From positions 186,001-250,000 of the forward strand of contig VCJN01002089.1 of NCBI GenBank assembly GCA_006384855.1: 64,000 bases of DNA. The letters are read 5' to 3'. Source of the stretch: Tetraselmis striata (Eukaryota; Chlorophyta; Chlorodendrophyceae; Chlorodendrales; Chlorodendraceae). The position numbers and the translations under genes were made by a program. The notes beneath the pieces are model-generated. The model made no database searches, was not told the DNA's origin, and saw only the letters and a program-made list of their open reading frames with translations. The first letter of the stretch is position 1. Every line of letters begins with the position of its first letter. Shown here piece by piece: positions 14,700 through 48,900 of this stretch.

Positions 14700-16218
14700 C
14701 GACGTTTCAAGTTCAGTCTGGTTATGCCAACAACGTCGCGCGCAGGCTGTTTTACACGATGAAGAGCCGAAATTGGCATAAAGTCTTAGGGAAAGCGTGG
14801 GAAAACGGAGCAAGGGGGGGCGGCGGGGGGTTGTGTGTAACACAGCGAAACTAGGATGGCGGGCTCAGCTGCTACGGCTGGTTTTATGTCTACTTGTGCT
14901 GCACACGAACGGGCGCAGCGAGGGGTGAACTAGCACCACTTAGCAGCACATGTAGTCGGAAAGGCGCATAGGAAATAAAGGAGGAAACCCCATATAAAAC
15001 TAGTTTAGATCATTTCAAGTTGACTTTGATTTTGCCAGTGAAGAGCAAACGAGGAGAGCGGCAGGTTGATCAAGCACGGGTAGCGCCAGCTCACGAAGGG
15101 GGCACCGAGAGCCAGGTTCACTACTGCGGACTCTTGTTGAACTTGAAAGTGGCGAAGGGGCGCGATGTGCTGGCCGTAGAAGAACCAAGCGCAAGGTGAA
15201 GGGAGGACCTTGCGGTCGATATAGTCCAGAACGACGTCGGAGTTAGTGGCCCATCCATCTTGGTGGCGGATGGGACAGCGGGACTCCGATAGCGTTAGAA
15301 GTTGAGGCTGCACCCTTGCGAAGGCTGTGAGAGGTCCTGGAAGTGCCGGCGGGAGGGGCAGCACCGGCGAGACGAACGGCCTCAGGGGGCCAGTCCGACA
15401 TTGTAGCGACAGTCCACGACATTGTAGCGACAGTCCACGTCAGCCTCCATGCGGCGGTGCCTGAGTAGCATGCCACGACGCGCGGCGGCGAGGTGTAGGC
15501 TGCCTTTAGCGATGGGGTCGATGTTGTGCAGTTCCAAGAACGTGTTGATTGCTGACATGTAGGGCTGCAACGACTTAGCTCCAATGCGGCCATGCTCAGC
15601 AGCAATCCAAGCGACGTACCGAAAGACGGTGGCCGCAGTCGCCTCCAACATGCTGATGTTCTCGGAGTCGCGGCAGAACTCCGCGATCTGAGACAGTTTG
15701 CCGGCGTGGCTCTTGAGCGTCGGAGAGGTAAGGGAGCCGGAGAGGAGGTCGAGGGTGTGCTGCTCCAGCTTGTCCGAGCCAAACGCTTCGTGTAGACGGG
15801 CCCGGAGTGAAGCCGCCCATGGAGCGAGAGCCTCGGGCTCGTCAATCTCGTAAATGCGACGTTTGACCGACGGAGTAGCATGAAGCGGCCCATTTTGGCA
15901 ACTTAACCGGCCGCGGCATAAGCTGCCGGTGTCAGTCGGACGGTAATTGTTGGGCGGGTTCGTCCGGGCACAAGTACGGGTTTGCGGGGCGATGTTCTTG
16001 TAGGCCGGCCGCCCCGTGCGCCCGTCGCGCTCATAGCGCCTGTCTCGCGCGTAACGTACACGCGCGAATGATGGTCGTTGCGAACCAGTTTTAACCTGCA
16101 GAGTAACATCCGACGGAGGCAGTGATAAAATGGTACGGGAGACGGGTTGTTGAACCGTCATGTGCGGGTTTGCGGATGGTTGAGCCGCACTCGGCTGTGG
16201 CTGTAAGAAGCGCCGCAC
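14700..16218 (-). mobile_element. PAT-like tyrosine-recombinase retroelement, copy B (internally deleted)
   Basis: The minus-strand frame 16,218-15,382 has a basic N-terminal part and then a phage-integrase-type core-binding domain (TLKSHAGKLSQIAEFCRDS, TVFRYVAWIAAEHG, SLQPYMSAINTFLELHNID). After a frameshift the next frame carries HSLRKGAAS, the box II HxLR motif. Comparison with copy C shows the box I segment (VVNFMFLRPEAY) is missing, so the first catalytic arginine has been deleted. A 21-22-bp tandem duplication of ACATTGTAGCGACAGTCCACG lies at the deletion point (about 15,400-15,440). B-type repeats occur at about 15,013-15,035 and 14,707-14,730, roughly 300 bp apart. Inactive. Confidence 0.75.
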
Positions 16219-18015
16219 CGATGAAGGCTGCGGGAAGCCATCGTCGACCAGTTCAAGTTGTTCACGGCAATGGCGCTCGCAGCTACGGCCCTACTTTCCC
16301 GCTACTTGTATTACATGAACCCTCCCCATGACACGGCGACCAATGTGCGCATACAATCCTGTACTTGGGTCACACCGAGAATCATTGGCTGGGCCAACAG
16401 CAATAACAACACGGCGGTGAGTATTCGTAGCAATGACCGGTTCGTATTGACCTATATGGAGAGGCTTAGTACCTTATAGTCTGAGAGAGACTGCCAAGAA
16501 TTGGGAAGCCGGCATGGCGGGTGGCATCGTCCCCAATTACCCGCACCCAGCAAGTGCAGCAAAAACACTAACAACACTCCGGGCAGCCTTCCTGCCGTAC
16601 CCCAACATGCCATGAGGCGTCGACGAGGCCACCGGGCCAGCGGCCTCCGTACTAACTCCCATCATGCAATGGGCAGATAGATACCGGCAGCCATGATCTT
16701 GTTCTATACTGATCGAGTCACGATATTTTGCAGTGAGACCAGCTGAGGAGACGCTCCATCCCCCCTTGGGAGGGTAGACTGCGGACAAATGAGGCGTAGT
16801 TGGGCCACAAGCCAAAGTGCTTATATGTACATATAAGGCATAGTTCCCCATACCCAGTAAAGTAGAGAGTGGCAGCATGTAGAATGCTATGGTTTTAGCA
16901 TGGTGTCATAATCTGACAAAGCCTTACCCATATGATTGTTCCAACTGTGTCACCTCCCCTGGCAGTCCCACGTACCCAGCAAACTGCCAGTAGGGGCAGT
17001 TTAAAACCGTTGTCGATTCACATGGTGGAGAGCTCACATCCGCCGTTGATTCAGATGGCCAAGGGAGCTAGGTTTCGGGCGGTGGGCACTGGGTGCGCAT
17101 GGCAGCGGCGGCCGGGCGCTGCGCGGAATTGTTGGCCAGCATAACTTTGATCGATTACACTTACCAGCTATACGAAAATTCAGCTAGTAGTGCAGGGTCA
17201 TTGTGTTATATGTGCACCACACATATTGCCCCACATCTTGTGAGGACATGCGAAACCATGATAAGTGATGGTATGTCACTATGTCCGGATCAGCATGGAA
17301 GCAGCATAGTTTCTCCCCGATGTGCTTCAGCACGACAGGGAAGGCATGATGCCCCCGTGCGAATGTTGGGCTGAAGGGGCGCCTTGCTGTGCCACACATC
17401 AGTGCCGATGGGGGACCCTATTGCCATGCGCTCAACTGCGTGCAGTTGGCACACAGCGAGGGCGAGGTCCGGCACCGAAGGGCTGGTGTGGGACACTTCT
17501 AGGAAGTACAACACTTCTCGAACATACATGCATGTGGTTGTTATGCTGCTCCACCTCGGCACGCCTGTCTCGCAGTACGGCATGCTTCTTTGCACTATTC
17601 ATTAGTAGGCACTCACTGCTCGTCACATGCAGTAGTGTGCTTGAACTCTCCGAGACATGTCTCGGGCTTCTTATGCACAACGTGCATGAGTGTATACCAA
17701 AGCTCAGCATGGCGACACTATGTAGGCAGTTTGGAGTCAGGCGTGGGGGGGGGGGGGGGGGAGGGGGGGGGGGCTTTATCCACAAGTTTCGCTTCCGTCC
17801 TTGTGTCCTGGCTGGTGTACGATACAGAGGTAGCTAACTAACATCATAGAATGATGTCCCCACCCCTATCTTACACTGGTGATACATGTTGTTTGTGCGG
17901 GGTAGTAGTGCAGCCAACAACCTCATTAATCATAATCAACGATCACAACAAATCATTTTCGACCGCAGATAAGAGTTGAATCGTCCGTCGATTTCACAAA
18001 CCGCATTTCCGCTGC
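16219..18015. other. Region without a recognised gene
   Basis: No open frame shows motifs or convincing composition. A run of G with a few A (about 17,743-17,774) is the only notable feature. Confidence 0.5.
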
Positions 18016-19582: not shown

Positions 19583-19812
19583 GCGTGGTACTGGTGTGAA
19601 TTACAAAAAGGGCAGTTCCCCAGAATTAGAAAATCAACACAGCAAGCCGCCTAAAAGCGGCCCGCATCCCGCATAAGGCGTGGTACTGGTGTGAATTACA
19701 AAAAGGGCAATTCCCCTGAGCTGCTGGTGTGAATTACAAAAAGGGCAGTTCCCCAGAATTAGAAAATCAACACAGCAAGCCGCCTAAAAGCGGCCCGCAT
19801 CCCGCATAAGGC
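19583..19812 (-). repeat. LINE 3'-tail repeat with stem-loops
   Basis: A block of about 95 bp is present twice (19,583-19,680 and about 19,725-19,812) plus a shorter middle copy. Read on the element's (minus) strand it holds GCCGCTTTTAGGCGGC, a perfect hairpin, followed by GGGGAACTGCCCTTTTTG and TAATTCACACCAG. It lies just beyond the ORF of the adjacent LINE fragment, which fits a 3' UTR with recognition structure. A related GGGCCGCTTTTACGCGGCAA is at 51,219-51,238. Confidence 0.65.
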
Positions 19813-21514
19813 GGGATGGATGAGTGATGCGCACACGGTTCAGAGTCCGGGCCACGCGAGCACGTGTGTGTGTGGGTGATCCTCGGACGTGCTGTGCAGC
19901 TTCAGCAACGGGATGGGAGACGAATCTGCGCCGTCTGATGAGGCAGCGAGCACGCTCTCGAGCGGCCACCAAGCTGAGGACCCCGAGGAAATCTCTTGCG
20001 AGCAAGGCCTCCTGGTGAGCCCGGGTGATGCACCGAGTGCCCCGCGATGAGAGGGCACCCCGGTCCGCAGCCAAGCATGCGATACCACGCACTGTGCGGT
20101 GCACCCCCTTGCTCACCTCACCCACTGTGCCGAAGACCATGCCCGTGTACTCCGACATATCCAGGATGTCTCGAAGAGGACCCTTGTGTCCGGGCTCTGT
20201 GTTGTGCCACGCCGCGTCCCGCGCAGCCAACCCCCGTTGTATGTCGCCCAACAGGGAGCGCTCAAACCGATCCACAGCTGTGGCCCGGGGCACTGAAGTG
20301 TACTTGACCCCGTACCGCATAGTCTTGAACTCTAGCAGCGTGGACTTCAAGCTCCGGGGATCATAGCTCCCGGTCACGACGTTGAACGCCGGAAGGGAGA
20401 GCTCTGCGTCCGGCACTAGGTCCTTGAGTTCATCCCGGGGTACGGTGTTGCCGAGAGGCACTGCCTGCTGGAACAAGTCATCCACCTCCCGCCGTACCGC
20501 GATACCTAGGTCGTGAACACAGTGATCGCGGAAGGCATCTGCGATAGCGTCGTGCCGTACACGCCAGTGAGCGTCTCCAGGCGCCGGGAGGTTCATGAGC
20601 GCGTCGCCGTATAGATCAACAATGACGGGGTTGTGCTCCGTCGAGGGCAGAATAATCTGGCACCCAACCACCGGGGCCAAGCACGGGCTAGGCAGAAAGA
20701 AATACCCGGCCGCGACCTCCCGCAGCTCATGCGGAGTCATGGCTGTCCGCGCGGTGGGGATGGCCACTGTCCACATGCCTGACGCCGCGTCGAGCTGGTT
20801 GAACAAGATCCGTTCCCTACATGTGGCAGGGAGAGCGCACACCTCATTTCGAAGCCAAGAGTTGTTGGCCTGGTCTAGAAATGCCGTCAGCTCCTTTTGC
20901 GAGCCCGACGCAGCCTCCACTTCCCGCTCCATCTGGCGTGCATCTGCGTCGCCGAGATGGCCAGCAGTAGCCGCTTGGAGGCGGCCCCACGCCTCGCGCA
21001 TCTCCGCGGCGTAGCTGTCCGACCCATGAGCATCGTCGAGGAAGTGGTCATACTGGCGGGCGGAAGAATTTGCGTTGAAGCTGCCTCGGCCAAGTACGGA
21101 CCCGAGCTGTGGGTCGAAGAAACCAGGGGTGGGGGTGTTGGTGCCGGAGTTCCTAGTCAGGAACCTTGGGAGGATGGCGTTCATGCAGCCGATGAAGGCG
21201 GCATCACGAACGGTAGCCATGCGGCGGATGCCAGCTCCCTTCAATCGAGTGGGGAGGTGAAGCCTGCTGCGCGCCCTGGCCACTGCATCCTCGCTCAAGG
21301 TAGCCACCTCCGCTGCCATGGGGTCGGGGTCGTGCAAAAGCTCCGCCAAGAAATCGGTGACCACCGGATTGGTGTCGGTGCCGTACGTGGAGGGATCAAA
21401 AGAGACCCCTAGCACCCGTTCGATAATAAGGCGTGGTACTGGTACTGGTACTGGTACGTACCGAAGCTCACCAGTAGCATCGGACGATGAAATCACCAGC
21501 AGTACCTGTACCAT
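19784..21514 (-). pseudogene. LINE-type polyprotein, region downstream of reverse transcriptase
   Basis: An open frame of 576 codons. It contains RLHLPTRLKGAGIRRMA followed by AAFIGCMNAILPRFL, the post-RT L-P-x-R-x-G-G-x-G-I-R type block of non-LTR elements. Next comes VDLYGDALMNLPAPGDAHWR, RHDAI, and later STLLEFKTMRYG with an E-x-K core, then GMVFGTVGEVSKGVH. The L-x-E-x-K arrangement recalls PD-(D/E)xK nucleases, and I infer a nuclease-like C-terminal domain. The RT palm (A/D-D box) is absent, so the element is 5'-truncated, although the 3' part is uninterrupted. The frame begins inside a GGTACT microsatellite (21,431-21,457 on +), so its start is not a true initiation site. Confidence 0.7.
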
Positions 21515-25724: not shown

Positions 25725-25753
25725 AGCAGTCTCGACTCTAGCAGTCGAGCAGA

Positions 25754-27022
25754 GTGTCAGCTTACTCTATGCCGACTCGGACCCGAGCCTCATCCTCCCG
25801 AGACGCTACACCTTCCCCACCCCGCGACAGCAGGATGCCCCCTCGTCCTGTACCGGAAGACGCCCTAGTCGACGACGCCCCGGGCGGCGCCACTGCGGCA
25901 TCCATCGCGGAATTGGAGAAACGCCTGACGGCCCAAGCGGAAGCCCTGGAGAAGCGGCTGGCCGAGCAGTTCGAGGCGGCTACGGCCGCCTTACTCGCTC
26001 GACTGGCCCCTCCCGTGCTATCGCCTCCTCCCAAAGGCACCCAGCCAGCCATTCCCGCGGGCGCGCCTACGCCCGAGGGTGGTGAGCAAGGAGCGCAAGA
26101 GCCCCTTCCTGCTGAGCTAGACGCACTCCACACCGAGCTCGAGTACGTCGACTTCGCCTACTTCGGTCAAGTCCCCCCTTCCGGTCTGGAGCCACCCCCA
26201 CGCGACGGCGACGAGCCTCGCTTGTGGATTCTGACCGGCGACGACACCGAATTGGCAAAACGCCTGACGGCCCAAGCAATAGCCCTGGAGAAGCGGCTGG
26301 CCAAGCAGTTCGAGGCGGCTACGGCCGCCTTACTCGCTCGACTGGCTCCTCCCGTGCTATCGCCTCCTCCCGAAGGCACCCAGCCAGCCATTCCCGCGGG
26401 CGCGCCTGCGCCCGAGGGTGGTGAGCAAGGAGCGCAAGAGCCCCTTCCTGCTGAGCTGGACGCACTCGACACCGAGCTCGAGTACGTCGACTACGCCTAC
26501 TTCGGTCAAGTCCCCCTTTCCGGTCTGGAGCCACCCCCACGCGACGGCGACGAGCCTCGCTTGTGGATTCTGACCGACGACACCGCCGCCCGCGGCCTCG
26601 CGGAGCAGCGGGGTCTGACAGCGTACGACAAGTACCAGTATCTTCGCTGTTATGCTAAGGCCTGCGGCCAATCCCTGGCGGTACGGCCGTCACTGCAGTA
26701 CAGTGTACAGTACCTGGGCCGCCCGTCCCGCGCACGGCGCCCGCGCCCGGGCTCTGGAGCGCCATGGACGGTGTCGATGGCGGCCGAGCCCCACCTTCTT
26801 GCCGACCTCTCTCCGGCGCCGGCCTGCCGACCAAGTTTTGGAGCGTCTCCCCGCTGGAGCCTTCCGCCGCTTGGTCCTTTTCAGCCACTCCCACTGACTG
26901 GCTGCGGGACGCCCGCCTGGCGGCGGGCGCCCAGCCGCCCCCCAGTGTCGCGTGGGCATCGCACAGGTTGCGCAAAGGCGCGGCCTCGGCAGCGAGCTGC
27001 TATGTTGCGTTTCTGCTGCTAG
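25754..27022 (+). CDS. Gag-like ORF with duplicated 113-residue module, fused to a recombinase remnant
   Basis: The longest frame runs from 25,754; the first ATG in it is at 25,769. A module starting ELEKRLTAQAEALEKRL (coiled-coil heptads), continuing through a Pro-rich linker PPVLSPPPKGTQPAIPAG and ending DGDEPRLWIL, occurs twice with a 339-bp offset. The reading frame is kept. After the second copy AARGLAEQRGLTAYDKYQYL looks like the end of a gag domain. Beyond about 26,690 the frame runs through deleted, unrelated sequence, so the authentic protein probably stops being meaningful there. In the PAT-like family ORF1 is a nucleic-acid-binding gag; the role here is inferred from position. Confidence 0.55.
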   Translation: MSAYSMPTRTRASSSRDATPSPPRDSRMPPRPVPEDALVDDAPGGATAASIAELEKRLTAQAEALEKRLAEQFEAATAALLARLAPPVLSPPPKGTQPAIPAGAPTPEGGEQGAQEPLPAELDALHTELEYVDFAYFGQVPPSGLEPPPRDGDEPRLWILTGDDTELAKRLTAQAIALEKRLAKQFEAATAALLARLAPPVLSPPPEGTQPAIPAGAPAPEGGEQGAQEPLPAELDALDTELEYVDYAYFGQVPLSGLEPPPRDGDEPRLWILTDDTAARGLAEQRGLTAYDKYQYLRCYAKACGQSLAVRPSLQYSVQYLGRPSRARRPRPGSGAPWTVSMAAEPHLLADLSPAPACRPSFGASPRWSLPPLGPFQPLPLTGCGTPAWRRAPSRPPVSRGHRTGCAKARPRQRAAMLRFCC

Positions 27023-28406: not shown

Positions 28407-31400
28407 ATGCCTATTCCCCGTGGCCCAGGCGCTCGCTGCTCCCGGGACAGCCTGGGTTGCCGGTCACTGCTCTCGTATGTCGTCCTGGCGTACTGCACAA
28501 TCAGAGCAGTGATGGCGTCGGCTGGAGTCACCGTTCCGCGCGGCTCCGGGGCGTCGTACGAGTACGGTGATCGCGAGACGCCGCTCGCCGACTCGTGCCA
28601 GCAGCCGCACACCCGCTGGGTGATCAGGGCGCACTTTCGGCTGTGCATCCACGACACTCGGCAACTTGACAGTCTGGATTCGCTCAGGCGCGTAGTGGAG
28701 GTGCGGCTCAGCCTGGCTCCTCTTGCCCCCCCCCCCCCCCCCCCCCCGCGCCAACACCACGATGCTGATACTCCTGCGCACCACCAATGTGCCGTTCAGA
28801 CGAAGTATCTACCTATTCCTGGGAAGAGCATGCCGATTGAGGAGCTTGTCGCAAGGCTGCCGTTGGAGGAAGAGTTTCCTCGAGGCAAGCTTTTGAAGAA
28901 CCTGAACTGGGCGTACACCAGAGCCCGTCTCAGGCATGCCAGACCGGTGAGTGGCCCAAGCCCCGCCCCGCACTAGCATGAAGCGCAGAAGACCCCCCCA
29001 TATTTGTTACACATGTGCTCATATGCCTAGCGCGGAGACTGAGAGTGGATTGCCTGGGGATTTCGCTGTGCTGGGCTGCAGAAATGTGTTGTCGAAAGAG
29101 AACCGTGGGGCACAAAGCCAGCCTGCTGCTGCGTCGCACCTGCAAATTGGCGATTCGAGGTATGGATATCCGACGAGGAAGCAGCCAAGGAGTTTCACAA
29201 GCAGCTGGAGATGTTTCAGGACTGGGAGCCGGCATTTTGCCTGGGCCTGCAGCATGCCGGTGCGACCATGCCCTGCGTTATCTTGCCTGCGTTGCCATGG
29301 GCCCTATGCTGGCGTGCTAAGGCGTCCACGGCTCCGCTCTGCAGTGCTCTCTAAGCATGTGGACGACTGCAAAGGGGCTGGGCCCCGCGTGGAGACTGTC
29401 AGCGAGTCGGGACTTGCAAACTATGATCAGCAGGCAACCCTGCCGCATGCAATTCAGCCGATGGTACATGGGCAGGACGCAGGGAGCAACTGCACAAGCC
29501 TGCAGAGTCAGCTGACACTGGTCTCAGTGGATGTGAACATTTGCTTCCGGGACAGCCAGGATGCCGTTCCGCTAGTGCAGCAGCTATGGTGGGAAGTGGC
29601 CTCGCGCTACAACTGGATCTACAACCCGCTGCTGCTCACCTGGCCATCGAGGGTGCACCCCGAGAGCCCCTCGCAGCTCTTGTACTTCTCCTACACAGTC
29701 CCCGGCACCGACTACAGCCAGGAAGGGCAGACATGCTTTGAGGGCGCGACGTGCTGCTGCTCGCAGCCTGCCACCTGGCACATCCGGGCCTCCTTCCGCG
29801 CCACTTCAATGGCAAAGGAGTTCAAGCAGCGCATCATGGAGGGCTTGGCATATGATGCCATGGAGAAGACTGGCGCGCTGTGCTTGGCTCCGAGGCATGC
29901 AGGTGGGAGCATGACCCACCTCAACACCACTGCATGATCCCCTCTCTGTCACCCGCTGTTTGCGCGCAGTGACATTTGCCCCGTGCCTCTGATTTTATAA
30001 CGCGCCTCGCTGTGTTGAGGCTGTAGTTTGAATCCTTATTGTTGCCTGCACCCTTGTCACCCAGAGCTTTCCACCTTTTGTCACGATCTACCGCATGACC
30101 AAGCCCGTCTTCAAATGTCATCTGAGGAACTCGACTCAGTGGAGGAGAGCTCGAATAGCTCACTGGCGCTCCGTATCACGGCCAGCCCTGCGATATTGGT
30201 CGGTGCTGACAGCGCCAGCCAGCACTACTGCAGCAAAGGGGCCTGCTCCTCCATGATGTCTCATCCGTCCGCTGTTTGCGGTGTCAGCGGTTCGGCGTGC
30301 AGTGCGATTTGCGCTGGGCAGTGGTGCGAGGTCCCGCGGGAGGGCTACTGCAGCAACAGGGGATGCGGCTTCGCGCCACAGGGCGGTGCCTACTGCAACA
30401 GCGGCGGCGTGCCCTGCAAGAACGAGTGCCTGGGGACCTGGTGCTCTGAGGCGGAGGCCGAAGGGCCGGGAGAAGCCCGGCTTGCAGGCAGGGAACAGGA
30501 GCAGCGGGATATGACTGCGTTGAGGGCAATTGTGGAGAGTGGCGGCTCGTATTGTGGGCAAGGAGGTTGCCATGGCCGCACACACGGTTCTCCGTCGTGC
30601 CAGATCAGCCCGGACAACTGCAACGTACGCGCCATTGCCCTTCATGATGTGGTGGCTTGTTAAAATGATGTTGCTTGCTCCTTGCCGCCTTCCTGTTTGG
30701 GAAACTAGCGCTCTCAAGCCAGGGTGTTGATAAAACCCTGGCCGTCTGCCACGTTTTTTTGAGACTGTGAAAATGACGAAGTATTACATGCATGTGACCC
30801 CATCACAGGCATGCCAAGGCTCATGGTGCGCCTCTATTGGCTACTGCACCTGGGTCAACTGCAACGGTCGCCCCATGGGAGGACAATCGTGCAATGAGGG
30901 CCCCACCAACTGCGCTTCAGCGTGCGGCGGTTACTGGTGTCCGTATGCTCCATCTGCTACCATGGAGCCCTCTCTGCTGCCCACAGAGGCACTCGCAGCG
31001 TACGAGTTTCTCACAGACAACAGAAACCGTAGCAAAGTCTCAACAGTACTGAATGATGACCTGATGTTGGAGGATACCGGCACAGCGGTTGTCCGCGGTG
31101 ACGAAGTCGACGCCTCCACGGGCCTGATCGGGGCAGCGGCCGGAAGACCACCCGTGCCCAGTTCAGCATTCACCCCGCTTCCTCAACCTGTCCCTTCCGC
31201 AGCGCCCAACCAGGTGCCTACCCAAGCGCCTAGTCCAGCCCCCAAACCAGCTTCAACTACGGAACCCACTCCCTTGCCCACTCAAGCGCGCGCTCCTGCT
31301 CCTACTCCTGCGCCCACTCCGGTGCCCACACCAGCACGCACCCCGGCGTCTACCACGGGCCCCGTAGGTGCCCCAACCTCAGCCTCAACATCAGGCCCCA

Positions 31401-34400
31401 CCCCAGTGCCCACTGCAGCCCTCACAGCCACCCCCATCTCGGCGCCTACAGCTGCCCCAACCCCAGCTCCCACTCCTGCAACCAAACCCGCGCCAACACC
31501 AGGGCCCACACCAGTCCCCACTCAAGCGCCCACACCAGCGCCCACCCCAGACCCAACCGCAGCGCCCACTCAAGCGCCCACACCAGCGGCTACCCCGGCG
31601 CCCACTCCGGTGCCCACACCAGCGCCAACACCAGCGCCCACCCCAGCCCCCACCCCAGCCCCCACCCCAGCCCCCACACCAGCCCCCACCCCAGCCCCCA
31701 CTCCAGCGCCCACCCCAGCCCCCACACCAGCGCCCACCCCAGCCCCCACCCCAGCGCCCACACCAGCCCCCACACCAGCGCCAACACCAGCGCCCACACC
31801 AGCCCCCACCCCAGCCCCCACCCCAGCTCCCACACCAGCGCCCACACCAGCACCCACCCCAGCCCCCACACCAGCGCCAACACCAGCGCCCACACCAGCC
31901 CCCACCCCAGCCCCCACCCCAGCCCCCACTCCAGCGCCAACCCCAGCCCCCACACCAGCCCCCACACCAGCGCCAACACCAGCGCCCACCCCTGCGCCCA
32001 CCCCTGCCCCCACCCCAGCCCCCACCCCAGCCCCCACCCCAGCCCCCACCCCAGCCCCCACACCAGCGCCCACCCCAGCCCCCACCCCAGCCCCCACCCC
32101 AGCGCCCACCCCAGCCCCCACCGCTGCGCCCACCCCAGCCCCCACACCAGCGCCAACATTAGCGCCCACACCAGCCCCCACTCCAGCGCCAACACCAGCC
32201 CCCACCCCAGTCCCCACTCAAGCGCCAACACCAGCGCCCACCCCAGCCCCCACCCCAGCCCCCACCCCAGCCCCCAGCCCTGCCCCCACCCCAGCCCCCA
32301 CCCCAGCCCCCACCCCAGCCCCCACCCCAGCCCCCACTCCAGCGCCCACCCCAGCCCCCACCCCAGCGCCCACCCCAGCCCCCACCCCAGCGCCCACCCC
32401 AGCCCCCACACCACCGCCCACACCAGCCCCCACCCCAGCCCCCACCCCAGCCCCCACTCCAGCGCCCACCCCAGCCCCCACCCCAGCCCCCACCCCAGCC
32501 CCCACACCAGCGCCCACCCCAGCCCCCACCCCAGCGCCCACCCCAGCCCCCACACCAGCGCCAACACCAGCGCCCACCCCAGCCCCCACTCCAGCGCCCA
32601 CCCCAGCCCCCACCCCAGCCCCCACCCCAGCCCCCACCCCAGTCCCCACCCCAGCCCCCACTCCAGCGCCCACCCCAGCCCCCACCCCTGCGCCCACCCC
32701 AGCCCCCACTCCAGCGCCCACCCCAGCCCCCACCCCAGCCCCCACCCCTGCGCCCACCCCAGTCCCCACACCAGCCCCCACCCCAGCGCCCACCCCAGCC
32801 CCCACACCAGCGCCAACACCAGCGCCCACCCCAGCCCCCACTCCAGCCCCCACCCCAGCCCCCACCCCAGCCCCCACCCCAGCCCCCACCCCAGCCCCCA
32901 CACCAGCCGCCACCCCTGCGCCCACCCCAGTCCCCACACCAGCCCCCACCCCTGCGCCCACCCCAGCCCCCACTCCAGCGCCCACACCAGCGCCCACACC
33001 ATCGCCCACCCCTGCGCCCACCCCATCCCCCACCCCAGCCCCCACACCAGCCCCCACTCCAGCGCCCACGCCAGCCCCCACCCCTGCGCCCACCCCAGCC
33101 CCCACCCCAGCGCCCACCCCTGCGCCCACCCCAGTCCCCACACCAGCCCCCACCCCAGTCCCCACCCCAGCGCCCACACCAGTCCCCACCCCAGCGCCCA
33201 CCGCTGCGCCCACCCCAGCCCCCACTCCAGCGCCCACACCAGCCCCCACACCAGCGCCCACACCAGCCCCCACACCAGTCCCCACCCCAGCGCCCACCGC
33301 TGCGCCCACCCCAGCCCCCACTCCAGCGCCCACACCAGCGCCCACACCAGCGCCAACACCAGCGCCCACACCAGCGCCCACCCCTGCGCCCACACCAGCG
33401 CCCACCCCAGCCCCCACTCCAGCGCCCACACCAGCCCCCACCCCTGCGCCCACCCCAGCCCCCACCCCAGCCCCCACACCAGCCCCCACACCAGCACCAA
33501 CACCAGCGCCCACACCAGCCCCCACCCCAGCCCCCACCCCAGCCCCTACCCCAGCCCCCACACCAGCGCCCACCCCAGCCCCCACCCCTGCGCCCACACC
33601 AGCCCCCACACCAGCCCCCACCCCAGCCCCCATCCCAGCCCCCACACCAGCCCCCACCCCAGCCCCCACCCCTGCGCCCACCCCAGCCCCCACTCCAGCG
33701 CCCACCCCTGCGCCAACCCCAGCCCCCACTCCATCGCCCACGCCAGCGCCCACCGCTGCGCCCACCCCAGTCCCAACTCCAGCGCCCACCCCTGCGCCCA
33801 CTGCTGCGCCCACCCCTGCGCCCACCCCTGCGCCCACCCCAGCCCCCACCCCAGCCCCCACCCCAGCGCCAACACCAGCACCAACCCCAGCCCCCACCCC
33901 TGCGCCAACCCCAGCCCCCACTCCAGCGCCCACCCCAGTCCCCACTGCTGCGCCCACCCCTGCGCCCACCCCAGCGCCCACCCCAGCCCCCACACCAGCG
34001 CCCACACCAGCCCCCACACCAGCGCCCACCCCAGTCCCCACTCCAGCCCCCACTCCAGCGCCCACCCCTGCGCCCACTCCAGCCCCCACCTCAGCCCCCA
34101 CCCCAGCCCCCACCTCAGCCCCCACCCCAGCCCCTACTCCATCGCCCACCCCTGCGCCAACCCCAGCCCCCACCCCTGCGCCCACCCCAGCGCCCACACC
34201 ATTGCCCACCCCAGCCCCCACTCCAGCGCTCACCCCTGCGCCCACCCCAGTCCCCACTCCAGCGCCCACCCCAGCGCCCACCGCTGCGCCCACCCCAGCC
34301 CCCACCCCTGCGCCCACCCCAGTCCCCACTCCAGCCCCTACACCAGCCCCCACTCTAGCGCCCACCCCAGCGCCCACCCCAGCCCCCACACCAGCCCCCA

Positions 34401-37096
34401 CTCCAGCGCCCACCCCAGCCCCCACTTCAGCGCCCACCCCTGCGCCCACCCCAGCCCCCACCCCAGCCCCCACACCAGCCCCCACACCAGCGCCCACCCC
34501 TGCGCCCACCCCTGCGCCCACCCCAGCCCCCACCCCAGCCCCCACACCAGCCCCCACTCCAGCGCCCACCCCAGCCCCCACTTCAGCGCCCACCCCTGCG
34601 CCCACCCCAGCCCCCACCCCAGCCCCCACACCAGCCCCCACACCAGCCCCCACACCAGCGCCCACCCCAGCCCCCACCCCAGCCCCCACACCAGCCCCCA
34701 CACCAGCCCCCACCCCTGCGCCCACCCCAGCGCCCACCCCTGCGCCCACCCCAGTCCCCACTCCAGCGCCCACCCCAGCGCCCACCGCTGCGCCCACCCC
34801 AGCCCCCACCCCTGCGCCCACCCCAGCGCCCACCCCAGCCCCCACACCAGCCCCCACTCCAGCGCCCACCCCTGCGCCCACCCCAGCGCCCACCCCAGCC
34901 CCCACACCAGCCCCCACGCCAGCCCCCACCCCTGCGCCCACCCCAGCCCCCACCCCAGCCCCCACACCAGCCCCCACACCAGCGCCCACCCCTGCGCCCA
35001 CCCCTGCGCCCACCCCAGCCCCCACCCCAGCCCCCACACCAGCCCCCACTCCAGCGCCCACCCCAGCCCCCACTTCAGCGCCCATCCCTGCGCCCACCCC
35101 AGCCCCCACCCCAGCCCCCACACCAGCCCCCACACCAGCCCCCACACCAGCGCCCACCCCAGCCCCCACCCCAGCCCCCACACCAGCCCCCACACCAGCC
35201 CCCACCCCTGCGCCCACCCCAGCGCCCACCCCTGCGCCCACCCCAGTCCCCACTCCAGCGCCCACCCCAGCGCCCACCGCTGCGCCCACCCCAGCCCCCA
35301 CCCCTGCGCCCACCCCAGCGCCCACCCCAGCCCCCACACCAGCCCCCACTCCAGCGCCCACCCCTGCGCCCACCCCAGCGCCCACCCCAGCCCCCACACC
35401 AGCCCCCACGCCAGCCCCCACCCCTGCGCCCACCCCAGCCCCCACCCCAGCGCCCACCCCAGCCCCCACACCAGCCCCCACTCCAGCGCCCACCCCAGCC
35501 CCCACTTCAGCGCCCACCCCAGCGCCCACCCCAGTCCCCACTCCAGCGCCCACCCCAGCCCCCATCCCAGCCCCCACCCCTGCGCCCACCCCAGCGCCCA
35601 CCGCTGCGCCCACCCCAGTCCCCACTCCAGCGCCCACCCCAGCGCCCACACCATCGCCCACCCCAGCCCCCACTCCAGCGCCCACACCAGCGCCCACACC
35701 AGCCCCCACTCCAGCGCCCACACCAGCGCCAACCCCAGCCCCCACCTCAGCCCCCACCCCAGCCCTCACACCAGTCTTCACACCATCGCCAACTCCAGCC
35801 CCCACACCAGCCCCCACCCCAGTCCCCACCCCAGCCCCCACTCCAGCGCCCACACCAGCCCCCACCCCAGTCCCCACCCCAGCCCCCACTCCAGCGCCCA
35901 CACCAGCCCCCACATCAGCGCCCACCCCTGCGCCCACCACAGTCCCCACACCAGCGCCAGCACCAGCGCTAATTCCAGCGCCCACACGTTCGCCCACCCC
36001 AGCGCCCACTCCGGCGGCAACACCTGCGTCCACTCCTGCTCCTACGCTAGCTCTTACCTCAGTTCTGACTCCATCGCCCACTCCGCCACTTCCTGCTGCA
36101 ATCACGCTGCCCGCACGAGGAAAAATCCCTGCTTTATCTGCAGAGTCCACTCCAGCGCCCACACCCTCCCCCCTGCCGGCACCTTCTCTGCCGCTGACTC
36201 CCATGCCCGTTTCCGGATCGACACAAGCCACCACTCTTGTGCCAACTCCTGCTCCTACCCCGGCGCCCACTTCCCAGCCTAACCCACCGCCCAGCCCTAC
36301 CCCCCCCATCCGCGCTGCCAACCGCACACCAACACCTCCCCTCATCGGCCCAACCCCCATGCCCTCGGTCAACCAGAACGCTGCCTCCCCAGCGGCCCAA
36401 AGCATGGCTGGCATAACCCCAGTCACAAATGAGACAGCTGTAGAACTGTCCATCAACGCTGAGAGCGTGACTCGCGTCGATGGCGGCGGCGACAATGGCG
36501 GCTTGAACTCTGCAGGCGGCAATCCACCGCTGCCCGGCGGGACCGGGGGCGTCGCAGGGCGGCTGGTGGCTGGTGATGATGACGCGCCATCTCCGGAAGC
36601 GCAGCAGTCCGCCGCTCCCGTGAGCTGCGATTTCTATGCGCCAAATATGGGCGTCCTTCCGGAGCTGGTAGAGGGGCGCTGGCGCAGCGTTGCCGCCACG
36701 GACGCCTGCGACGCCGTGCTGCTGGTGCACTGCACCCACGCGCTGGAGCCAAAGTCTGCGGGCAGGCCGCTCGTGGAGCTCTTCCGGGTGCTGGTGGACG
36801 AAGGTCTGCCGGGACAGGTCGACCTTGCGTACCGCTACGCTCCCGGGGTGGGGACTACCGGCGAGTCACGCGGGGACAACGACAGCGATCTGGCCGTCTA
36901 CGTGGTCCACGCTAGCATGGCAGAGCACTGTGGCGCTGGGGGGCGCGTGACGGTGCAGCTGGTGCCGGACCTGGGCGTCGCGCATGACCCCATCACATGG
37001 TCCAAGGTGGAGGCCGTGAGGGCGCGGTCCGTGGGCTTCACTGTGTCGTTGGGACAACCATACAGACTCTCCGGAGCTTCTGCGTCGCCGCAGTAG
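28407..37096 (+). CDS. Giant modular extracellular/cell-wall glycoprotein with Thr-Pro-Ala-Pro stalk
   Basis: The 5' end is unresolved; 28,407 is the first in-frame ATG of a plausible exon. Downstream exons agree in phase: 28,800-28,946; 29,082-29,259; 29,345-29,900; 30,065-30,624; 30,809-37,096. A domain recurs with [13 protein letters not shown]...LGLQHAG in exons at 29.1 kb, [17 protein letters not shown]...LAPRHAG at 29.8 kb and a partial [17 protein letters not shown] at 28.6 kb. The first two end at the same phase-1 intron. Four Cys-rich modules of about 30-35 residues follow (30,220-30,960), each with YC-x(4)-C ... C ... C-x(3)-C-x(4)-WC. The last exon then encodes about 1,650 residues of [16 protein letters not shown] repeats, the classic substrate for prolyl hydroxylation and O-arabinosylation in algal walls. 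A C-terminal domain of about 160 residues ([19 protein letters not shown] onward) follows, with no membrane or GPI segment. Function is inferred as a matrix or wall spacer; no family name is claimed. Confidence 0.7.
31590..36010 (+). repeat. 12-bp coding minisatellite (CCCACCCCAGCC)n
   Basis: About 4.4 kb of 12-bp units encoding Thr-Pro-Ala-Pro. Variation is mostly synonymous third-base change (CCC/CCA/CCT/GCG/GCC), with occasional Val, Ser, Leu or Ile replacing Ala. The + strand is almost free of G runs while the - strand carries GGGGCTGGGGTGGG throughout. A higher-order duplication with a 492-bp (41-unit) offset links about 34,570-34,960 with 35,062-35,450. Confidence 0.9.
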
Positions 37097-43668: not shown

Positions 43669-45364
43669 TAACACATGCGCACTACAAACAAACCAAAAAC
43701 TATGCAAGGTTGCCAGCAAAAGAGAGACATAAGCCTAAAACCAAGGTCAAGCAGGAGGCCAGGGAGCCAAGAACCAAGGGAGAGCCAAGGAAACCACGAA
43801 GTCGCCAAACTGCCAGGAACCAAAGGGTCAAGGGAAGCACTGAAGCCAAGGAACGACCAAAAAGACCGAAAGGGGAACATGAAACCAATGGGGACCACCT
43901 CCCCGGGTAGGCCATCAACCGCGGCGAGAACGCTTGCAGCCAATGACCCGGGTCATAGCAACACATGCCGACCAGCGGCGCGACGCAGGCGCACGAGCAC
44001 CATCACGTGCCGCGCGCGCCGCCACGACTCCGCCAATAACGTTGTCTGCATGTGCCATGTTGATGAGCAAGGAGAAACGGCGGCGCCACGGAGACAAGAG
44101 CTGGCCGATTTTTTGGCTAGTGTGCGTGTGGCTAGCTTTCGCGAGCTCCACCAAGAAGGCCTCAGCGCGTGCGGGGCCAGCGAGCCGAACTCGGAGACGG
44201 CAAAAGGAATAAAACGAAGCATGCCGGGGGCGTTTCGGACACCCTCGTCATAGTTTTGGATTTTGTGGCGCTCTGCGGCCCGCAATGCCGGCGTTGGATC
44301 CGACCTTGACACGCCGAGGATAGGGGCAATGGTGGTATCGACAGCAACCGTGTTCCGGCGGATACCACCATACCCAAAAAGCCCAACATCGGCCGGCCGG
44401 CCGTCGATGTCCTTCGGAAGAGAAACAAGCACCGACGGGTCCGTGAGGATCTGGACACCCACGCCCAGGGCGGACTTCACGTCGTGGCAAACGTCGGAAA
44501 GGCCATGTGCCGCCCACTCGTGTGCGGCGTGATTGGAATCGCCCCCATAGCAACGTGCCACGTGATCAACGTATGCGACCGCCCAAGCCAAAGGAGTGAA
44601 TTCCATGCCAACATCCTCAAAGCGGGCCAGCGTGCATTGTACCGAGAAGGAGCAAAAAGCACACGGGCAGGGCTCGCTAAGGGAGAGGACAGGAGCCGCC
44701 GGAAGTAAGGCCAAATGGGCGGCAAGCGGCAACGTGGAACATGGAATCGTAGCACTCAGGGGAACGCCCACGGACTGCACCAAGGCGACCCTCACTTGGA
44801 GGATCAGTAACCAGAAACGCTGTCGCATCGCGTAATAAGAGGCGGCCGTGGAAGCGGTTACCGTCAGGGCCGCTTGTAGGCATACGCGCAACAAGCTTCG
44901 CGAAGCGGACCGTGTGGATATGGTGACTCAGGGTTTTCCAAGACTTTCCGCATGGAGTGCAAGGGGAAGTCCGAGTTATGCGGGATAGCTTGGAGGTCGG
45001 CCGCTGAGCGCATCGCACACGCCGGCTCAGCCCTAGCGGCCAAGCAGCCGGCACGGGCAACGGGAGAGCGCTTGGAGGGGAGCAACTTTAGGGCAGGGGC
45101 CTACGGCCCCGCTAGATCCTCGAGCACCGCGTCTCCACACTCGTCAACGACACGGGTATGAGCAACGCGAAGCTCGACAACCCACATCGGCGCCGACACG
45201 TTGGCGCCGGCAGCGGGCGCCAACGCCGGGGTGGCCAAAGCCTGGTGAATCGAGGACGCCCCAACAAGGCGGTAGAGGCTACGAGGGATGGATACGCCTG
45301 ACGGCTCGGAAAGGAACGCGCCGGCGTCATTGAGGGTGGCGTGTTGAGCACGGAGGAAAATCAC
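43669..45364 (-). pseudogene. LINE-type retroelement fragment, longer relative of the 4.6-5.7 kb copy
   Basis: The minus frame 44,894-43,953 repeats the blocks of the 5-kb copy: HVARCYGGDSNHAAHEW, VCHDVKSALGVGVQILTD, GRPADVGLFGYGGIRRNT, RFIPFAVSEFGSL. Upstream frames (45,364-44,677) add ARMPTSGPDGNRFHGRLLL and LVTDPPSEGRLGAV, which belong between RT and the Cys/His segment. A frameshift breaks the C-terminus (HALRPSW versus HAEAFLV in the other copy). No RT catalytic box is present. Confidence 0.7.
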
Positions 45365-45963: not shown

Positions 45964-48900
45964 ATGATCGAGCTCGAGACCGTGGTTCTCACGGCGGTAG
46001 TGGTGCTGCTGCTGCACGTATTTCTCCGACGATACGCCCTCGCCGACCGGCTCAACGGTCCGCCCTCATCCCCTTCCAACCCGCGCTTTCCTCCGAGCTC
46101 CCGCGCCGCCCCACCGAATGAACGCCACGTAACGTATGGCAATAGCCCCCTCCCCTAACTTCGGTCGATCATTTTCGGAATTGCGTCATGCTTAGGGCGC
46201 GGGCCATTCGTCCCGGGTAGTAGCAACTCCTGGAATCAGGGACTATGTCGACAGCATGTGGAACGCCCGCCGCCCTCTCGCAAATCCGCCCACCAATTCC
46301 AAATACCAGCCCTCTTAGCTCACCGCCACAAGTGAACGACACACACGCGGATTGCGGTGCCAGTGGCACGCACACTTCATCCGAGCGTCGCCCCCTGGTG
46401 CTCACACCTGGCGTTGCCGGGCAGCTTGAAGCAACCATCCAAACGTCGTCCAGAGTAGCTCTCTGCTGTCGTTACACGATATGATTCTCATGGTTCACGG
46501 AATTCACAAAGTTACCGGATCACCCTCAAGCGGCCTTGCTACCTGTGTTCTCGTCCCTTCACAGGCGGGTCAGTGCTGCCGCAGCCCCACCGCCAGCCGC
46601 CCAGCGCCCCTGGTTGGCTACCGCTGTTGGGTCACGCCCTGTCATACAAACGCAACCCAGCCGCCTTCCTCACAGAGCAACACATGCGCCATGGCGCGGT
46701 TTCACTCGACCTTGCTGGATTCAGGACTGTGGTTGTGAGCGACAAGGATGCCGTGCGCCAGGTGAGAGCCCTGCCTATCCTACGTTGCTACTGCAAGCTC
46801 AGCCCGGGCACCTCACCCCATGACATGTGTGCCGCGCAGGTTATGAACTCCTCAGAGAGTGTGCTGAGCGAGAAGGAGGCAGTGAGCGACTTCGGCTTCC
46901 TGGAGGCTCTGGGCGAGCTGTGTGTCTATGTCGCTGTCAGCGCCCACAAGCGCATCCTGAAGGGCGTGCTGCACCCCACCAATGCCGACATGTCACAGTT
47001 GGTTGAGGCAGCGCAAAGCGCTGTGGCGGCGGAGCTACCGGACGACAGCGGCACCATGGACGTGCTTCCCACCATGCGCCGCATCATGCTGCGCATGACA
47101 CTCACCTTTGCCGTCAGCCCCGCCATCTTGCGACTCTACCCAGCCTTAATGGATGAGTACATGCACTTCCAGGTCAGCACTCCTACCACATGCCACTCTG
47201 ATAGCACTCTGCTTTCCTCCCAACACTGTCTACCTGGCAAGTTATGGCCGCAGCTGTCTCTCTGCCATCTTCCTCTTCCCTTACAGATGCTTTGCCATAC
47301 CGTGGACCAAATGTGTGCCCCATCCAACCCAGTTTGTGCTCTTATCCCCACGCCCCCCGCTATCTACACTACATCGTTTCGCTTTCCTCCTGTGGCCGGA
47401 CTTTTGATCGAAGCGCACAACGCTGCCCTCCAGGATAAGCTCGAGGACGCAATCGCTGCAACAGCAGTGCTACCTAAAGCGCTGGCGCGACCGCTCAAGC
47501 TGGCACCAATTGCCCGGCTGCGGAAAACGCTTACAGCCAAGCTGGCAGCTGCCATCTCTCGACTGTGGGAGCAGGCGGAGAGCGATGCAGCAGCAGAGGC
47601 TGACGACTGGGTGGATGTCAGCCAGGAGACGATGCTAGGTGTGTGGCTCACAGAGCTGCGCGGGACAGACTTGTCGGAGCTACCAGGCTGGAAGGAGTAC
47701 ATGGCCTGCAGTGGTGCAACCGAGGACAATGCATGCACCGGGCCTATCACGCCCGATGCTGCGGCCCAAATCGTCATCAGCCTACTCTTCGCCGCACACA
47801 AGAATCCGGCCATAGGCGCCGGCCAGACGCTGCTCATGGTGCTGGAGCACCCTGCTGACATCCACCTCATTGAGACAGAGCTTGCGGCATTTGTGCTGGA
47901 CAGCGACACTCTTGCCAAGTTTGAGGCGTCAGGTAGGTGGTGCCCCCCGCACCTTATTCCCTGCCCTCCCTGACCGATCGAGATCAGCGAATCTGAAAGT
48001 AAATGGCAGTTGGTAAATAGGACAGCTGCTGGGCTGAGCTGGTATGCCCTCTTGCACCTTGCTGGCCGCCCTCTCTAAGACGACCTATCTCCTAGCCAGC
48101 AAGCTGCGCGCAGCAAGGCATTCAGGGCCGAGGTGGGTGCGCGAGACGTTCTGGAGGAAAGTTTGCTGCATCTTGGCTGCTGCATCTCGGAGGCGTGCCG
48201 GCGTACGGCGCACACCCTTGGCGCTATCCGCAAGGCAAGCGCCCTGCAGACTGCCGTCATTCCCGCGAGGGAGTGGCTCCCACAGGAAATTGCATGACTT
48301 GAATCAAGCCGCCGGCTTCCGGAGCACATGTTCTTTCACAGGACGAACAAGCCAAACATTGCTTTGATCAGTGCCAGCCCTGGGCGTTTTGCTGCTTGGC
48401 GAGGAACCAATGCTGCCTCTTCTGCTGGGTGCGCAGGTCATGACACCTGCCGGCTTTGAGTTCTCCTGTGGCAAAGAGCTTAAGTACTGGGTGCCAGCCA
48501 ACACATATATTGCCGTCTCACACGTGGCGGTGAGCTTGGATACAAGTATCTTTCCACAGGTGCACCCCAGTCTCGAACTCGCTCAGCTTTCCTGCACGCT
48601 GCCGTACCCACATCACCCAAGCTTACTTGCCAGCGTGAAAATAGAAATTCAACCGACTTTCTGCATTGCTCTAGCCGCCACCCCGCCTGCTTGGAAGCAT
48701 GGCTGATGCGTTGCGGGCTTCCCCCTCCCCTGACTGTAGGCGGACAGCTTCCACCCGTGCCGCTTCAAAAGCGCCGAGGACGGCCTCATCCCGCACTGCA
48801 AGTATACCGAGTACGAGTACACCGTCTTCTCCCAGGGTCTACACCGCTGCCCAGGTACAGTGCACCGGGTTTTGCTACAATGGATATGCCGCAAAGCTGG

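Follow-up and report, generated by a model that had tools for sequence, protein, structure and literature searches.

The stretch analyzed here (the window) comprises 64,000 nucleotides of Tetraselmis striata contig VCJN01002089.1 (C1693 in our numbering; positions 186,001 to 250,000 of the forward strand). Its positions 28407 to 37096 (+) are best read, from the sequence, as a single gene of a secreted surface type. With a probability of roughly 0.65, the product would be a chimeric arabinogalactan-type hydroxyproline-rich glycoprotein, in which a very long alternating X-Pro stalk serves as a surface spacer that holds two binding ends apart. The N-terminal end carries two copies of a head domain whose family was traced to other genes of the same genome (224 Mb in 2,903 contigs were searched).

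The gene is one open frame read through GT-AG introns, and the start at 28407 and stop at 37096 given in the initial annotation are correct. The at least five exons proposed there do join in frame with GT-AG borders into one protein (2,707 residues, one terminal stop); however, a model with six exons and 2,674 residues is preferred, in which the segment 28701-28799 is probably a phase-0 GT-AG intron. This segment (borders GTGCGG...TTCAG) is open either way: the frame is kept when it is removed and, if it is retained, its poly-C run would encode polyproline. It is read as an intron because two related genes described below, on contigs C1288 and C2188, carry a phase-0 intron in the homologous position, and because codon usage within it does not favor the model frame. 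In both genes the following exon is succeeded by another phase-0 intron; this exon ends in ...HARP in the window gene and in that of C1288. The order of intron phases around the domain (0, 0, 1) is common to the first window copy and both relatives. Codon usage was scored with a measure trained on 3,668 codons from other open frames of the genome; the model frame was the best of six in all seven non-stalk pieces, by a margin of only 0.03-0.04 in two of them (exons 1 and 2). The gene is composed of the following features:

28407-28700, +, exon 1: start, a hydrophobic stretch resembling a signal peptide (about residues 18-44, by hydropathy only) and first part of head copy 1 (W1, from 28590)
28701-28799, +, probable phase-0 intron with the poly-C run, coding in the five-exon model; read from its borders, the introns of the relatives and codon usage
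28800-28946, +, exon 2: middle of W1; ends ...RLRHARP at a phase-0 donor (exon 2 of the C1288 gene ends ...HLKHARP at the same place)
29082-29259, +, exon 3: end of W1 (CCC-x2-PA-x-W ... C), phase-1 donor
29345-29902, +, exon 4: linker and head copy 2 (W2, from 29488); phase 1 on both sides
30065-30624, +, exon 5: linker, Cys modules 1 (30226-30327) and 2 (30346-30444), and the first 25 residues of module 3 (30550-30624)
30809-37096, +, exon 6: remainder of module 3 (30809-30829) and all of module 4 (30842-30940), then a linker, the stalk, the C-terminal domain and the stop
31304-36268, +, TPAP stalk core within exon 6: 1,655 residues in 413 twelve-base units, of which 311 encode TPAP
36623-37093, +, C-terminal domain within exon 6: 157 residues, a single match in the genome, no family match

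The stalk, put at roughly 1,650 residues in the initial annotation, spans 1,655 residues from the first to the last TPAP, with proline at 90% of alternate positions. Its 311 TPAP units are written in 22 synonymous 12-mers, and all third positions of TPAP are four-fold degenerate. Differences from the consensus affect 518 of 1,652 third positions (31%), compared with 176 of 3,304 first and second positions (5%; Fisher p 5e-129, the units not being independent since the array grew by duplication). The bias persists among the 88 distinct units, each taken a single time (183/352, or 52%, vs 140/704, or 20%). As changes pile up at third positions, the amino acids are what is kept, and the stalk looks coding; judged by this pattern, the alternating X-Pro stalk of the predicted protein is kept by selection on the protein. 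The open frame alone proves little here, because other frames across the array are also open (up to 1,682 codons on the plus strand and 1,471 on the minus strand), and codon usage within the stalk does not favor the model frame (0.00, vs 0.18 for another frame). One exact 24-mer of the array occurs seven times in the genome, each time in this gene.

The composition of the predicted product is that of an arabinogalactan protein (AGP) rather than an extensin. Proline, alanine, serine and threonine together (PAST) make up 72% of the whole protein and 95% of the stalk, and the glycomodule index is 0.44-0.45 (our own count of non-overlapping dyads). Both the whole protein and the stalk exceed the values used for AGP screening in the accessible text of PMC5266747 (42%, 55% and 0.15). 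Like chimeric and non-classical AGPs, the protein is PAST-rich and contains non-contiguous X-Pro glycomodules above the thresholds, and its start is signal-peptide-like by hydropathy; unlike them, it combines a 1,655-residue stalk with globular domains lacking a Pfam match, and its C-terminus is not strongly hydrophobic as for a glycosylphosphatidylinositol anchor. The anchor signal of classical AGPs was not seen by hydropathy, the only method applied (highest 15-residue value in the last 40 residues, 0.79). Extensin was rejected, as the stalk core is nearly devoid of contiguous proline (three PP in 1,655 residues, in place of Ser-Pro3-5 repeats) and contains no tyrosine. A literature search, with subscription papers mostly outside its coverage, returned no paper matching TPAPTPAP, and no title or opening of an abstract described such an architecture; within the libraries searched, the X-Pro stalk appears new in its length and purity.

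The head domain (CCC-W) had been described as repeated two to three times. Two copies are present and, as stated, both end at a phase-1 intron; a third is not supported. A candidate ahead of the Cys modules was rejected, since the linker after W2 resembles that before W2 no better than chance (497 of 2,000 shuffles were as good). W1 and W2 align with a score of 65 (z 8.2), a value reached by none of 1,000 shuffles. Duplication of a beta-alpha unit inside the domain was likewise rejected (chance-level scores in all four copies tested), as was DUF3304, a Pfam match below the cut-off (E 0.031, 19 residues round CCC) that was absent from both relatives scanned; in the latter, the Pfam scan returned only Bromodomain, also below the cut-off (E 0.21), in the C2138 protein.

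Genome searches revealed that the head domain belongs to a family of at least seven copies in four genes: the window gene and those on C2138, C1288 and C2188. The number is a lower bound, as these searches score the best candidates only. With W2 as query, the search returned W2 itself and a weak match on C2138 (E 0.004), while the reverse search with the third C2138 copy (c3) recovered W2 (E 0.001). A profile built from the C2138 copies only placed W2 first and W1 second among 1,276 six-frame open reading frames (ORFs) of the window (E 7.8e-7 and 1.2e-4; next 0.5). Exon 3 led to C1288 and C2214 (E 5.6e-6), from which a further search led to C2188 (E 4.7e-7). The three genes found are:

C2138:122924-124931 (L024 2925-4932), +, hydrophobic leader, three head copies (c1, c2 and c3) with a phase-1 intron at the end of each, then a short tail
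C1288:21309-20372 (copy T; L058/L059; repeated on C2214), -, exons 1-3 of a small type I membrane protein of 263 residues
C2188:90602 onward (copy U; L063), +, 341 residues with a signal-peptide-like start, one head domain, a transmembrane exon and a tail

The C2138 gene shows no stalk or Cys modules in the stretch read; its start codon was not found, its last exon is tentative and one of its introns would have a GC-AG border. The C1288 protein has a signal-peptide-like start, a single CCC-W head domain, a transmembrane exon and a short tail. The tail of the C2188 protein contains ENPIM, comparable to DNPMA of the C1288 protein.

Alignment of the seven copies revealed six invariant columns (four Cys, one Trp and one Ala). 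The highest pairwise scores join T with U (322; z 55), W1 with T (192; z 29.6) and with U (118; z 16.9), and W2 with c3 (86; z 12.7). In an unrooted maximum-likelihood tree of the seven copies (136 columns, 200 replicates), {W1, T, U} is separated from {W2, c1, c2, c3} with a bootstrap of 100%. The predicted stalked protein is thus one that carries a head domain from each subfamily. This does not agree with the proposal of the initial annotation that exon duplication built the protein: W1 is closest to the membrane proteins and W2 to c3, whereas W1 and W2 score only 65 against each other. Because they fall in different subfamilies, a recent in-gene exon duplication is disfavored; a very old one is possible, given the small unrooted tree. 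As an unnamed family spread over membrane and stalked proteins, the head domain appears, by sequence comparison, new within the libraries searched.

Weak genome matches on C2277, C2470, C2113, C2476 and C915 were re-examined with the seven-copy profile on both strands (455 ORFs) and were not counted (best E 0.061 for C915, within which the genome search had counted a stop, and 0.27 for C2113). A profile of W1 and W2 matched a minus-strand ORF antisense to c1 (E 9e-4), which is taken as chance and is unexplained. Several loci occur on two contigs with equal scores, e.g. C1288 and C2214, which suggests uncollapsed haplotypes. A plastid-type RbcL of the assembly finds its best PDB match in 1gk8, from Chlamydomonas reinhardtii, consistent with a green alga as the source.

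Four Cys-rich modules, as annotated, follow the heads, with the pattern Y-C ... C ... C ... C ... C-x-G-x-W-C; the third is interrupted by the intron that precedes the stalk exon. Since its last seven residues lie in exon 6, exon 5 is tied to the stalk exon. The six-Cys module is common in the genome (a single query gave 39 matches at E up to 1, haplotype duplicates included). Six Cys and one Gly are invariant in all 18 hand-chosen copies, a set chosen without module 3 of the window gene or divergent copies, e.g. the second ones of L012 and L018. On C1332 and C2388 the module accompanies a match to the SdiA-regulated family, which we take to be a beta-propeller, and on C1482 it stands beside Pro/Ser-rich stretches. 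The module (YCxW...CxGxWC) was seen at L006, L007, L008, L010-L012, L015 and L020, where its partners are SdiA-regulated-type, transmembrane or Pro/Ser-rich. In the proteins scanned, it was not covered by any Pfam match.

The 157-residue C-terminal domain, annotated as unique, has a single match in the genome. In agreement with the earlier view that no named family has this architecture, no Pfam family fits the three pieces of the window protein scanned (nearly all but the stalk) or the two relatives scanned, and searches of PDB sequences with W2, the Cys modules and the C-terminus gave no significant match (the best, at E 0.41, was to a fungal hydrophobin and spanned 20 residues around CCC; the C-terminal domain reached 0.57). 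A viral or prokaryotic origin was rejected: no confirmed relative of W2, of the Cys-module protein L008 or of the C-terminal domain was found in viral contigs, nor any of the C-terminal domain, the sole piece scanned there, in bacterial and archaeal genomes.

According to the proposed mechanism, the protein would enter the secretory pathway, and its stalk would form an extended polyproline-II rod of about 0.5 µm (1,655 residues at a rise of 0.31 nm per residue). The stalk prolines would be hydroxylated and O-glycosylated: in plants, arabinogalactan is preferred on X-Hyp-X-Hyp repeats in which X is Ser, Thr or Ala (available part of PMC6523594), and prolines of a native algal polyproline-II helix were found to be glycosylated (available part of PMC11015965). 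The Cys modules would act as a disulfide-stiffened neck and the two ends would bind other surface or wall molecules, so that the protein would serve as a tether or an extended spacer; the membrane-anchored one-domain relatives may be binding partners of the head or may recognize the same ligand. A tether or long fiber is the most economical reading because the stalk separates two heads and a disulfide-rich neck from a distinct domain.

Several observations weigh against this interpretation. No known binding domain was recognized in either end, whose functions are read from the architecture. Hydrophobicity at the N-terminus reaches only a modest peak (1.71 over 19 residues, by hydropathy and not a dedicated signal-peptide predictor), and exons 4 and 5 are joined on the basis of phase and openness alone. 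The AlphaFold model of W2 is poor (mean predicted local distance difference test score, pLDDT, 53.0), with a low-confidence hint of a beta-alpha ... beta-alpha order, while that of the C-terminal domain (41.5) is too poor to interpret. The family is also uneven: a genome search with c1 (E up to 10) failed to recover either window copy, and c2 pairs weakly except with c1, c3 and W2. Scores as high as that of W1-c2 arose in 7 of 1,000 shuffles and T-c2 is not significant (z 1.7); for T with W2, c1 and c3 at least 1 of 1,000 shuffles was as high in each case, for U-c1 and U-c3 1 of 1,000, and for U-c2 23 of 1,000.

A possible but doubtful alternative is that the product belongs not to the wall but to the adhesins of gametes or flagella, in the manner of agglutinins or mastigonemes. 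The Chlamydomonas sexual agglutinins SAG1 and SAD1 have a long Pro-rich shaft with globular ends, a layout that the window protein resembles, and membrane proteins carry the head domain as well; the likeness is one of layout, and the repeat here is TPAP, whereas agglutinins are named as SPAP2-containing in the accessible text of PMC3149072. The half-micron stalk with a globular head and tail also resembles Chlamydomonas MST1, which, in the available part of PMC11015965, has tandem globular N-terminal domains, then a Cys-rich part and then a proline helix. Against an adhesin stands the lack of a significant PDB sequence match, in a set not confirmed to include MST1, and for MST1, too, the resemblance is one of layout.

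A bolder and rather unlikely proposal is that the CCC-W head represents an undescribed surface-recognition system of this lineage, in which pairing of domains would tether the wall or a neighboring cell to the membrane. The head would then be displayed on short membrane proteins, on a free three-domain protein and on a half-micron glycosylated stalk bearing one copy from each subfamily.

We consider it improbable that two genes are present, a short one for a secreted head-domain protein (exons 1-4) and another for the Cys modules and the stalk (exons 5-6). The C2138 gene indicates that heads can stand alone, and the exon 4-5 join is the one based on phase; however, exon 4 ends at the usual phase-1 donor of the family and exon 5 continues in phase 1, and the start of exon 5 lacks a strong hydrophobic stretch (the nine most hydrophobic 19-residue segments start at residues 18-26 and the next lies in the C-terminal domain). 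That the stalk is a non-coding minisatellite in a chance open frame is hardly credible: C-rich repeats do lack stops, leaving several frames open, and stalk codon usage is no help to the model, but the third-position bias and the single-copy domain with coding-like codon usage that follows in the same frame argue against it.

Pherophorins have globular ends flanking a Pro-rich stretch, whereas the window protein gave no match to their DUF3707 (PF12499) at E up to 10 in the same three pieces. An exon-by-exon search of the genome for DUF3707 was also negative, although control genomes were equally silent, so that its absence is not shown.

Other ORFs of the window were also inspected; ten of the 76 listed, some of which belong to this gene, gave no Pfam match at 0.01. 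Upstream of the gene, 25742-27022 (+) has a long internal duplication (EKRLTAQA...ARLAPPVLSPPP...FGQVP twice). By eye, 15382-16290 (-) and 19784-21514 (-) are tyrosine recombinase-like and reverse-transcriptase tail-like, respectively, and the start of 46459-47973 (+) is cytochrome P450-like, with no Pfam match at 0.01 for any of them. A common stretch (NTVAVDTTIAPILGV...FAVSEFGSLAPHA) in 43953-44927 (-) and L024 8041-8506 (+), on two contigs, is perhaps a mobile element.

Large hydroxyproline-rich proteins are typical of green-algal surfaces, and the role of their folded ends is seldom known. The overall architecture found here is of this broad known kind, that of chimeric hydroxyproline-rich glycoproteins, because the accessible text of PMC3149072 places chlorophyte Pro-rich repeats generally in large multi-domain proteins. 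One folded end can now be placed in a defined family, with seven copies, several of which share intron positions, on membrane and stalked proteins of one genome. This head family is a testable candidate for the attachment of a surface fiber or the wall to the membrane, and the nearly pure alternating X-Pro stalk would offer a long substrate of natural origin on which the hydroxyproline glycosylation code could be tested.
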